From NCBI GenBank assembly GCA_011947345.1, contig JAAVTG010000218.1:1-64000 (forward strand): DNA of 64,000 nt, in the 5' to 3' direction. The translations under genes were made by a program, and so were the position numbers. Shown piece after piece: positions 173-20,911 of the stretch. Origin of the DNA: Phytophthora quininea. Taxonomy: Eukaryota > Oomycota > Peronosporomycetes > Peronosporales > Peronosporaceae. The notes beneath the pieces are model-generated. The model had not been told where the DNA came from. It did not search any database and worked only from the letters and a program-made list of their open reading frames with translations. The first letter of the stretch is position 1. The number at the start of each line of letters is the position of its first letter.

Positions 173-1033
173 ATGCCTGGAAAGCTCAAGCGCGTTGGCA
201 GGTCGGCCAAAGCGACAGCTATGGCCGACACGACCGAGGTGGATGCCGCAAGACCTGCCAATGTCTACGTGTACACGTACGCGTACACGCACACCGACAC
301 CAACATCGACGCATACGACGATGCCAACGCCCCCGCCCCCACCAACACCGACGGAGACGGCGATGTCGATGCCCCCGTCGACGCCTTTGTCAACTCCACC
401 GACGTATACGGCAAACGCGATCGATGAACCGCACGGGAGATCGACTTCGCTCCAAGACAAAGCCCATACCAGCGCCTACAGCAGCTTTTAGCAGCTCGAT
501 CAAGTGGCACGTCTCGACGGATCGTCACGTCCGTTCAAGGTGCGTGAGTTTGGATAGCTGTGTATGTTGCACATTCTAACAGTGAATTTGATTAGACCTA
601 CAAGAGCTAATCCAGAGGAAAGTATCGCTCCAAAGCGTCGAGCTGAGAATGAAGCTACTGTGGGTCTCTGACCACATGTACAGGGAGTCAGGCTTGTTCG
701 CTTGCACTTCACTGATGCTACGTCCCCGGAAACGCTACAAACTCTACTTACCGTAAGGAACAAATGCATGAACATTACTAGTACTCTAACAATGAACTTA
801 ATATGTAGGTGTTTCGAGACCAGTACGATCAAAACAAGGAAGAAGTCGATACCGTCCTCTTCACAGCCACGATTTGGAATATGGAGTCCACAGATACAGC
901 GCTGCCTCCACCTGGAACCATTGTTGTCATCTCCCACTTTTCAAGCATGAAGCTTTTTCGTGAGAAGCAGTGCCAAGCAACCACAAAGCTAAGGGACATT
1001 TCGTGGGAAGAAGCAGTCAACGCCGCTGCTTGA
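173..1033 (+). pseudogene. OB-fold-like small protein, cassette copy 1 (frame-disrupted)
   Basis: This is a three-exon gene matching the intact copy at 18466-19163 in exon order. Exon 1 (from ATG 173) starts MPGKLKRVGR and holds a low-complexity CACC/GAC tract (about 266-372) absent from copy 2. A frame change follows, then a stretch (SPYQRLQQLL) that aligns with TPYQLMRQIL of copy 2. Intron 1 is 540-595 (GTGCGT...GATTAG) and intron 2 starts at 751 (GTAAGG). The last exon (from about 809) reads VDTVLFTATIWN and GTIVVISHFSS, the same beta-strand pattern as copy 2. A second frame change lies in exon 2 near 690. Function is inferred only from the OB-like pattern (nucleic-acid binding). It lies upstream of a DUF6818 gene and a histone H4, as copy 2 does. 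Confidence 0.6.
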
Positions 1034-2383
1034 GTTTTCCTCTGTTGTAGCATTTCTAGCTCTCATTTGCACTATCTAATATTTCTTTTAAAATGGTAAC
1101 ATTCATTTGCTACAAACGAGATTTTGGCTACATGGGATCGAAGCCGTTCATATTTTTTCTAGTGTACTTCTAGTAAAACCATGACTAAAGGGTTAACTGT
1201 GGACTTACACACTTTATACGCTTCCTTCCCGTTGTAAATTTTCCCTATCACCGCCACCGAGGTGACACGTTTCGTGACCTGATGTTACATATACATAATT
1301 TTCATCTGAATTAGCATAATATGATATTACCGTGGCATAGATTGTAGATAAATAATACATACTCTGCGAGTCTGTCTCCACCAGAGGACTTAAGAACATC
1401 AAGAAGGCAAGTCATGACGGGAAGATAGATTCATTGTGGGATCACACTTTTCAAATGCTCGCGGTGAAAGAGCAGTTGCAGAAAAGCGAGGCTAGTCTTG
1501 CTCAATTTTGATCCGCCGTGGCTGGACAAAGACAATAGCAAACGGGCAGTTAAAAATGTAAATACTGATGCATACTATTGCTGTGGGAATTTGCTGAATC
1601 ATAAACTCTCTATCTGAAGGCTTCGCACCAACAGACCGCGTCAACCAAGACGAAAGCAGCTCTTCTGATGAAGGACCCGTCATCCCCACTTGCGGAAATG
1701 CACAGCTGCGCTTAAGGCAGGGAAGTTAACGCAGACACCTCGGCGACAGCTTGATATCACGAGAAAAACCACTCAATCGGGCAAATTATCTCCCGCATCT
1801 ACGACAACGATGGACATGCAAATTCAGCAGGTAGGTTGAGCAGCATCTTATGTATATTTCAGCGTGGATAATTAACATTGATTATTTTATTTGGTTGGTC
1901 TAGCACTGCAACACCCTCCAAAACTCACCACAGAAAGGTATCCGAAACGTCTCTCAGGAAATCAAGGTTCGATGTCTGTCGCTCGCATCGAAGTTCTCGG
2001 GGACGGACTGATCATCTGACAGCCCGTTTTCGTTTAATTACGAGTTTGCTCTTATCTAATGCAGGTTTTGCACATGAAACATTGCCTTCATTGTGGTCGA
2101 TATCGTTTTAGCCAGAGGTGTTGTCTCTAATCGATTTTAGTATAATATAACCGCTTAAATGTGAATCAGCAACATTTAGGATTGCGCGACTTCATATATA
2201 TAGACGTCCAACAGCCGTTTACAACTGACTCAACTTCCGTGCTGCCGCTCGATTTCACTGCTGGATTTTTATCCTTGTTGGTGCAAAATTATTCTTCACC
2301 TCTGTGTAACTTTCAGTACATCAATCACTTTGGTGTCCACAAAATTTCCTGATACTGACAGCACCTGACAATCAACAAAACTT
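1034..2383. other. Stretch with coding-like scraps, no recognised gene
   Basis: In cassette copy 2 the OB-like gene and the next gene are only about 110 bp apart. Here the gap is about 2.2 kb, so most of this stretch is probably an insertion or lost genes. Short coding-like pieces occur on the + strand around 1700-1830 and 1905-2010, separated by a possible intron (GTAGGTTG...GGTCTAG, 1831-1904). I do not recognise them. Confidence 0.3.
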
Positions 2384-2390
2384 TATAAAA
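2384..2390 (+). promoter_or_regulatory. TATA-box-like site
   Basis: TATAAAA lies about 30 bp before the ATG at 2417. A GCTCACAACCAAATCC stretch resembling the oomycete initiator sits between them. It supports transcription of the coding-like segment that follows. Confidence 0.35.
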
Positions 2391-2416
2391 GACGCTCACA
2401 ACCAAATCCGCTAGAG

Positions 2417-2894
2417 ATGCAAAACATATCAGCGCTTGAAAGCCGACAACGGCTCGTTGAAGTAGAGAATCAGGCTTTCAAAGATGTATTGGCCGCGTAC
2501 GAGAACCTTTGCCAGATACGACAGACACACGATGCTAGTAGTCTTGTCGTCCAAGCAGCAGTGTCGCGCTTGCGAGGAGATTTGATAGGCTTTACCAGGC
2601 CCGCCAACACGCAAGTCAGACATCATTTGTGATGATGTGTTTGACAAAATGCTTGCCGAGGAAAGAAGTAGTCGTTGAGAAGCACAGGATGATCGATTTG
2701 CCGCGTTCTGGCAGCGTAGAGAACACCATCAACCGACGTGGCCATCAACAGCTCTTGTACGGCGGTTGGTTGTTCCTCGTACGCCAAACCAAGAACATGA
2801 AGCAGCAACAAGCATAAGTACTCAGGAAAGCGACGGCGTGGAGGACGCTGAAATTATTGACCTACGAGGCAATGATCAATCGGAAGATGACTAG
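2417..2894 (+). pseudogene. Unrecognised coding-like gene, frameshifted
   Basis: From ATG 2417 the frame reads a helical, charged protein (ESRQRLVEVENQAFKDVL). It stops at about 2630, but a neighbouring frame carries on with similar composition (DDVFDKMLAEERSSR, later an acidic end DAEIIDLRGND) to a TAG at 2892-2894. One or two indels would explain the break. Charge and heptad-like spacing suggest a coiled coil. It sits between the OB-like gene and the DUF6818 gene of cassette copy 1, with no counterpart in copy 2. No family is recognised. Confidence 0.4.
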
Positions 2895-19163: not shown

Positions 19164-19343
19164 GTGTGTTGCAGACGCTTGCATAGGGAGATGAGCAAAA
19201 TTCGAACGATAATGCATCTATCATTGCGTGCCCTCCCGTTTGCTTTTCATTGTTCATTTTGCGGGGAAGTATCAAGGTAGCGTCCGTGTAGAGCAGCAAG
19301 TGAAAATGTGTTGTGCTGTCCCTGACGTTGTGTTTGACCACAG

Positions 19344-20066
19344 ATGCCGAAAAACACGGCTCGCGAAACTACAGCGCGCAAGAACAGCTGTGTCTTATTA
19401 CGGAGGTTACCCGCGTCTTGCCATTGCGGGAGTTTGAGTGGCAAGTGGTTGCGAAGGAATTTAACGCACAGCAACCCAATAATCGGGGTCGAGACAGCGG
19501 CAGCTTAAAGCGCAAGTTTGCGGGTCTGTGTCGAATGGAGAAGCGTACCAATGATGTGAAGCTGACCCAGTTGCGGCTGCTGGCGAACCGGGTGAAGCAA
19601 CGACTTGACGAACGGGCTTCGCATTTGCCGCCAGCAACGTACAGTAGTCACTCAACGCTTGAATAGTGCAGACGCGGGTGCAGCGGTGAATGAACTCGTG
19701 GATAACCACCGCGACCAGCGTCGAGGGAGTGGCATTATCATTGGTGGGGGCAAAAACACCACTGAGTCGAGCTCGCTAAGCAACTGTACCGTCGCTAGCT
19801 CTGGCGAAAGCGTTGATGCAAGATCCGACGCCCTTCCGCGTGAGCAAAGCGAGACTCCGACTACTGGGCCAAGATGCACGTGTGGATTCGACTGTGGGCT
19901 GTTTGTCCACCACCTGGGGCAATTTCAGGACACTCTGCTTCGTGAAATGAAGGCGCAGCATCTATTGGAGCGGGAAGAGAGAAAAAAACAGCTGAAACTA
20001 GATCAGCGTGCTGCTCGACGTTACAAGGAGCTACTTGAAGCTTCTATCGCGTCTGTAAAGTCATAG
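19344..20066 (+). pseudogene. SANT/Myb-like DUF6818-type protein, cassette copy 2 (frameshifted)
   Basis: This is homologous to the gene at 3304. It has NYSAQEQLCLITEV, LPLREFEWQVVAKEFN and SLKRKFAGLC in the DNA-binding-like domain, then a charged coiled coil (LLEREERKKQLKLDQRAARR) at the end. The ATG at 19344 follows an AG directly; a 67-nt leader intron (19277-19343) matches copy 1. The frame must shift just after the start (after about 7 codons) and again near 19640. Either decay or two sequencing indels would explain this. It lies 180 bp after the OB-like gene. Confidence 0.6.
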
Positions 20067-20600
20067 CTTAGCGACAACAAAAGAACTAATAAACGCTACG
20101 GACCGTGTAGCATGGTAGAGAAAACACGTTAAATTCCTTACAAAAAGTTGTGACGCTCGCCATTGAGCGACTTGAGTTCCTTAAACAAGTCGCTCCGAAG
20201 GGCAGTTGGCACTTCGCGCAATGTATCCTAATGCCCACACCTCCTGACTTGAACTTGCTCGGCGAGACTCTACTGTGTCCTAACTGATGAAAATGAGGAC
20301 AGTAGCTGACTTGAACTTCCATGGAGCCGTAATAGAGCAGCGTAGTGCTCTCGATGCCTGACATCACTCGATAATTTACCCTGGAGCCGAGAGCAGAGCC
20401 TACTACGACACGGGTGCAACGTTTGTGGTGTGAATATTTGGTTGTGAGGCTGAAATGTTCAGGTGGTAACATTTGACGCCCTGTATTCGTATCAATGCAC
20501 GTGTATTGACGTCAGCAACCAGGACAGCGTAAGTACAATGCTTTACGTTTGCTAAGAACGTTGTCTAATCGACATGCCTTGCTGTAGCCGTGACGCTTTG

Positions 20601-20911
20601 ATGAGTGGTCGTGGCAAAGGTGGTAAAGGTCTTGGACAGGAGGCGCCAAGCGCCACCGTCGCATTTTACGTGACAGCATCCAAGGGACCTCAACAGCTTC
20701 TATCCGACGTCTTTCCCGCCGTGGAGGTGTCGTCAGAATGTCTGGGCTGATCCATGAGTATACCCGGCAAGTGCTGAAGGTTTTCCTGAAGGAACTTATT
20801 CAAGATGCCGTTGTCTACGCGCAGCACGCCAATCGAAAAACAATCAAGACTATGGACGTCATCTACGCGCTTAAGCGCCAAGGCCGCACCTTGTATGGAT
20901 TCAGCAAGTGA
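20601..20911 (+). pseudogene. Divergent histone H4, cassette copy 2 (one-base deletion)
   Basis: ATG 20601 opens the H4 tail MSGRGKGGKGLG. One base is missing at about 20637, where a lysine codon is expected, and the remaining H4 fold continues in the next frame to TGA at 20909-20911 (ends RTLYGFSK). Residue 20 is arginine instead of lysine. It shares variant-specific changes with the copy at 4430 (DAVVYA, HANRKTI, TMDVIYAL). With the deletion it would not give H4; an assembly error at one base would make it intact. The 530 bp upstream holds no gene and is presumably its promoter. Confidence 0.8.

Follow-up and report, generated by a model that had tools for sequence, protein, structure and literature searches.

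The first 64,000 bases of contig C173 of the Phytophthora quininea assembly (87.2 Mb in 993 contigs), hereafter the window, raise the question of why genes coding for an OB-like protein, a DUF6818 protein and a histone H4 occur there twice. As the preliminary description had noted, all three genes are present in both copies in the same order and on the plus strand, each time with a leader intron of 67 nt that ends at the DUF6818 ATG. We found that this three-gene repeat makes up the 3' genes of two neighbouring Helitron2-type rolling-circle transposons, elements A and B, arranged head to tail (Table 1). Near-identical copies with common ends, a terminal repeat and hairpins, an empty site, and HUH, two-tyrosine and Walker A motifs together leave almost no doubt about this identity. 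The feature therefore extends beyond the three genes first described, to transposons of about 15 kb that also code for a Rep-helicase and carry a minus-strand gene. Between the two cassettes lies the Rep-helicase of element B.

Ends, copies and gene content of the transposons

The search of the genome with the H4 of copy A gave 94 matches, nine of which were protein-identical (100%) and located on nine contigs including that of the window. The surroundings of ten of the most similar other H4 copies were then compared with the window: eight matched it at 99.3-99.6%, the other two at about 91%, and in all nine compared copies reaching that end the match stopped near window base 6335. Eight different right flanks were found among the ten copies having one (the window included, C580 without), which rules out haplotigs or segmental duplication as the sole source of the copies. 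Allelic or duplicated contigs may account for some of the nine identical copies; the sharing of flanks is mixed (C23 with C720 and C289 with C719 on the right, C289 with C720 on the left), a pattern that is not explained by simple haplotigs.

A full copy of element A, of 14,929 bp, is located at C289:8555-23483, and 8.58 kb of the 5' part of the element, with the Rep-helicase and the minus-strand gene, precede the contig start in the window. The first bases of the C289 copy, TTCGTAGTTCGA, are found inverted as TCGAACTACGA just before the 3' CCCGGG hairpin. The 5' asymmetric inverted repeat TCGTAGTTCGA starts 1 nt from the element end, within the 0-2 bp of Helitron2, and the end of TCGAACTACGA lies 33 nt from the 3' end, directly before the hairpin, at a position for which the Helitron2 paper gives about 20-30 bp; no such 11-mer inverted pair arose among 20,000 random pairs. 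Like Helitron2, element A exhibits a hairpin at each end (8 pairs at the 5' end, CCCGGG at the 3' end) and a Rep-helicase (PF14214) with HUH and tyrosine motifs, which are present in both elements. For element B the 5' repeat was not found, a pattern search giving no more matches than expected by chance. The termini of element A are 5' TT and 3' GGGTAGCCAAT, the exact end being placed to within a few bases. Canonical Helitrons insert between A and T; here the base to the left of the insertion is G in C289 and C720 and A in C580. The termini do not agree with a canonical Helitron (Helitron1), which has 5' TC and 3' CTRR. Of the endonuclease that Helentrons have fused to the C-terminus of the Rep-helicase, no sign was found in the frames scanned of a gene that was read in pieces, and the last frame of element A stops after the helicase part.

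When the flanks of one insertion are joined, they align at 91% with an uninterrupted stretch of C953, a paralogous empty site, about ten bases differing at the junction. A host gene cassette duplicated locally would also give the same gene order and the equal leader intron in both copies, but it is ruled out by the ends common to the copies and by this empty site; the Rep domain found upstream and the occurrence of nearly identical copies at unrelated positions speak against it as well, and its probability is practically negligible. The genes thus do travel as a unit, as had been proposed, but as cargo of Helitron2-type transposons whose copies arose by transposition and not by duplication of a host cassette. 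In C537 (~24000-34190), as in the window (6335/6336), an A-type element is followed immediately by a B-like element of like orientation, as if the elements insert head to tail.

In C289, element A codes for the Rep-helicase (several frames, with HUH, two-tyrosine and Walker A motifs), a 331-aa minus-strand frame, the OB-like protein, the DUF6818 protein and H4, and element B has the same gene order from the Rep-helicase to H4, followed by its CCCGGG hairpin. The minus-strand gene, the product of which has a C2H2-like finger at its C-terminus, thus belongs to the element. In the C289 copy of element A it is located at C289:15696-16511 (-), and it gave 141 match rows in the genome, with 41-65% identity between families. 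The fold model of the protein is poor (pLDDT 40) and its Pfam and PDB matches are weak only; it may be beta-strand-rich and dioxygenase-like. For the OB-like protein neither a Pfam match nor a significant PDB sequence match was found, and the OB fold is a predicted one, which backs the identity given in the preliminary description short of proof. PADLOC gave no match, and the term DUF6818 was not met in the papers listed by a search of the open-access literature.

The copy-A protein is an H4 because it exhibits 66-79% identity to H4s; it matched histone-fold families in Pfam, with a PF00125 score of 24.2 bits, just under the 26.4-bit cut-off. The H4s of copies A and B are 72% identical over residues 13-102. 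Three of the six cassette genes in the window are frameshifted, namely the DUF6818 and H4 genes of copy B and the OB gene of copy A, the frame of which differs from that of the eight near-identical copies compared. The direct repeats of element B form two overlapping 1.4-kb units that interrupt the Rep-helicase.

Table 1 Features of elements A and B in the window
Feature	Position	Strand	Remarks
Element A, 3' portion (Helitron2-type transposon, 14.9 kb in full)	1..6335	+	Copy cut by the contig start
OB-like gene, copy A	173..1034	+	Three exons; frame unlike other copies
Leader intron, copy A, 67 nt	3237..3303	+	Ends at the DUF6818 ATG
DUF6818 protein, copy A, 269 aa	3304..4113	+	PF20681, E 4.6e-12
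Histone H4, copy A, 103 aa	4430..4741	+	Intact
3' asymmetric inverted repeat, element A	6292..6302	+	Complementary to the 5' end of full copies; placed via the C289 copy
3' hairpin, element A	6307..6327	+	
Element B through its 3' hairpin	6336..21164	+	Gene order matches element A; 3' hairpin; element ends at ~21170, both ends approximate
Rep-helicase, element B, several frames	7649..15898	+	PF14214, E 2.4e-21
HUH motif, element B Rep-helicase	9364-9384	+	
Two-tyrosine motif, element B Rep-helicase	10351-10374	+	
Walker A-like motif, element B Rep-helicase	11894-11908	+	
Direct repeats inside the element B Rep-helicase	12215..14778	+	1,151-bp spacing, 99.9% identical
Minus-strand accessory gene, element B, two frames	16758..17494	-	41-46% match to the 331-aa frame of element A
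OB-like gene, copy B	18468..19163	+	Exons ~18468-18660, 18737-18901, 18957-19163
Leader intron, copy B, 67 nt	19277..19343	+	Ends at the DUF6818 ATG
DUF6818 protein, copy B	19344..20066	+	Frameshifted
Histone H4, copy B	20601..20911	+	Frameshifted near the start
3' hairpin (CCCGGG), element B	21147..21164	+	Preceded by CGAACTGCGGA at 21133-21143

Outside the two elements, the window codes for two similar secreted-looking proteins at 25680-26402 (+) and 24169-25053 (-). The first had no Pfam match, and both contain a candidate RxLR/EER-like stretch.

Linkage and selection of the H4 genes

The 94 H4 matches were reduced to 84 H4 places by dropping ten second fragments. The OB, DUF6818 and Helitron lists, obtained with queries from single families, were reduced manually to a single row for each gene, one DUF6818 place (window copy B) being added by hand; the OB matches are those listed and 150 of 231 Helitron candidates were scored, so that the counts are lower bounds. 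On the same strand, at least 66 of the 84 H4 places have an OB gene within 8 kb upstream, at least 56 a DUF6818 gene within 5 kb upstream, and at least 48 are preceded by a Helitron Rep domain at a distance of 4-25 kb, compared with about 0.3%, 0.2% and 1%, respectively, expected under random placement. All three partners are found upstream of at least 40 of these places, and one or more of them upstream of at least 72. The preliminary description had asked how often the genes are adjacent and named unlinked genes as evidence against it; counted in the window's own genome, the linkage holds. As a control, five places with one identical canonical-type H4 had none of the three partners listed upstream, and in four of the five a core-histone (PF00125) match lies within about 0.5 kb. 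The whole genome contains only 23 PF00125 matches, none of them, by inspection, within 25 kb of the listed Rep matches; therefore H4 alone among the core histones was amplified. Among the matches listed, H4 is found downstream of 47 of 89 low-scoring Rep matches and of 1 of 33 high-scoring ones, therefore one Rep lineage holds H4.

The comparison of dN/dS for each gene, suggested with the original description, gave a codon omega of 0.055 among 11 H4 representatives (between families), 0.051 for OB exon 3 (9 rows) and 0.18 for the DUF6818 domain (8 rows, window copy B being left out owing to stops). Between H4 families, host included, pairwise dN was 0.14-0.36, dS being saturated and not computable in 27 of 36 between-family pairs. 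The genome contains 11 H4 families at 85% single linkage and, with the omega between their representatives, this bears out that the linkage is old and repeatedly preserved. Within two young H4 families omega reached 1.87 and 1.34; other close pairs stayed below 1, with values of 0.27 and 0.38 for the A family, 0.14-0.33 for another family and 0.65 for a third, and the host H4 pairs exhibited no amino-acid change. Low omega between families and high omega within the two young ones is as expected for a gene that is needed for spread and may decay after insertion.

An H4 captured once from the host and carried as a passenger without function would agree with the capture of gene pieces by Helitrons and with the decayed H4 fragment of a mosquito Helentron (PMC4067079), and many H4 copies in the genome are indeed decayed. 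However, the omega of 0.055 between families and the frames that stay intact in diverged families speak against a passenger, which we regard as highly improbable. Judged from the codon data, H4 is very probably selected for the element's own spread.

Of the 40 rows in the H4 tree, the 32 transposon-type ones fell on one side of a branch with a support of 95/86. These rows, all in register, comprise 24 from this genome and eight from other sources, namely P. nicotianae, P. cactorum and P. lilii proteins and five JGI proteins; the latter eight, known as single proteins, are presumably located in Helitrons as well. The OB-like protein, too, has relatives in named Phytophthora species. Unusual proteins annotated as histone H4 in the protein sets of Phytophthora are likely to be explained by the element H4. 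Nearest to the canonical side within the transposon-type group are the H4s at C320:24170-24475 and C815:54989-55294. The C320:24170 H4 has kept K44 and lies in linkage with OB, DUF6818 and a Rep domain, so that it may represent an early branch or else a second capture. In a scan of viral contigs for a viral origin of H4, 15 pattern matches were obtained, none of which was confirmed as a relative.

Residues were counted in 38 rows and 19 families, including six added short-tail rows whose tail positions cannot be compared. K20 is kept in 2/19 families, K31 in 4/19, K44 in 2/19 and R77 in 1/19, and position 20 is Phe or Tyr in 24 of the 32 rows. R39, R78, K79 and K91 are kept in 19/19 families and R35, R36, R40, R45, R92 and R95 in 16-18 of 19, while the tail lysines are kept more loosely (K5 15/18, K8 13/19, K12 10/19 and K16 14/19). 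The conserved arginines touch DNA in the nucleosome.

A possible role of the element H4 against silencing

What might a transposon gain from its own H4? In the reading that we favour, the element H4, which is under purifying selection and without K20 in 17 of 19 families, would join host H3 on new element DNA and shield the copies from H4K20-dependent silencing, a proposal to which we give only just less than an even chance. The Rep-helicase would peel a strand off, and the OB-like protein, with its predicted fold, would coat the displaced single strand, as is proposed for the RPA of other Helitrons. The DUF6818 protein might help to bring H4 to element DNA, where element H4 and host H3 would be deposited on the new copy, and the K20-less H4 would deprive this copy of H4K20 methylation, a silencing mark. 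We infer that the element H4 is expressed and enters nucleosomes and that its missing K20, with K31, K44 and R77, is of importance; an anti-silencing mechanism of this H4 is in itself possible rather than probable. The complete scheme, in which a K20-unmethylatable H4 is delivered with the OB and DUF6818 proteins onto the freshly replicated element DNA of oomycete Helitrons and forms private silencing-resistant nucleosomes there, is more tentative still.

H4K20me3 is described on silenced repeats in animals (PMC9406493) and anti-silencing proteins are described as carried by other transposons (PMC12730594). The weakest link, which counts against an action through K20, is that nothing was found in the literature on H4K20 methylation in oomycetes.

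The residues that were kept, being DNA-contact and core ones, would also suit an H4 that serves as an assembly aid, for fast chromatinisation of the displaced strand or circle and of the second strand, the losses of sites being incidental drift. The position of H4 beside an OB-like protein, like the RPA reported in other Helitrons (PMC4067079), agrees with such a histone supply. Canonical H4 would suffice for it, yet the same few lysines were lost in most families, and H3 is not carried; we consider this explanation unlikely. The same pattern of residue losses would also fit an element H4 that enters host chromatin generally, weakens heterochromatin and frees the element indirectly, and many copies could supply a large dose. 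Such host-wide interference would be expected to carry a heavy host cost, and the co-travelling DUF6818 and OB proteins suggest local action, which makes it rather improbable.

Comparison with known rolling-circle elements and anti-silencing systems

The elements resemble Helitron2 (PMC3627910) in their asymmetric terminal inverted repeats, a 5' hairpin involving the repeat, a 3' hairpin, a 5' T and a Rep-helicase. They differ from it by the addition of the OB-like, DUF6818, H4 and minus-strand genes, the assignment being based on ends and motifs. Proto-Helentron-Pi of Phytophthora infestans is similar in its length of about 14 kb, 5' TT, Rep-helicase, further genes with the last one on the minus strand, and in that no endonuclease was found; it has a 3' CTAG and a SET gene, and no histone is reported for it (PMC4067079), whereas the element here ends in GGGTAGCCAAT and contains H4. 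The same source gives Helentron-Cq-32A of Culex as a rolling-circle element with an H4 sequence, which there is a fragment with a stop and a frameshift in eight copies, whereas the H4s here are full-length, under purifying selection and spread over 11 families within a single genome. A small accessory protein of the single-strand-binding type is also found in Helitrons with RPA-like proteins (PMC4683698); the OB-like protein resembles it in its predicted fold alone.

H4 is among the most invariant proteins. An intact, selected H4 in a transposon was not found in the open-access literature, although an entry in Repbase Reports or in subscription papers is possible; what is new here is a Helitron accessory gene of a sort not previously met as a working part. 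Here a selfish element maintains an H4 of its own that has diversified into 19 natural families, in which particular modification sites are lost and the DNA-contact core is preserved, and these families make it testable which residues the nucleosome needs and which serve silencing. Like the VANC, TET/JBP and SET genes of other transposons (PMC12730594), the element H4 would be a transposon gene aimed at the chromatin state. Those are regulators or enzymes, whereas the candidate anti-silencing factor here is a core histone; if the proposal is true, a structural chromatin protein joins the counter-silencing tools of transposons.

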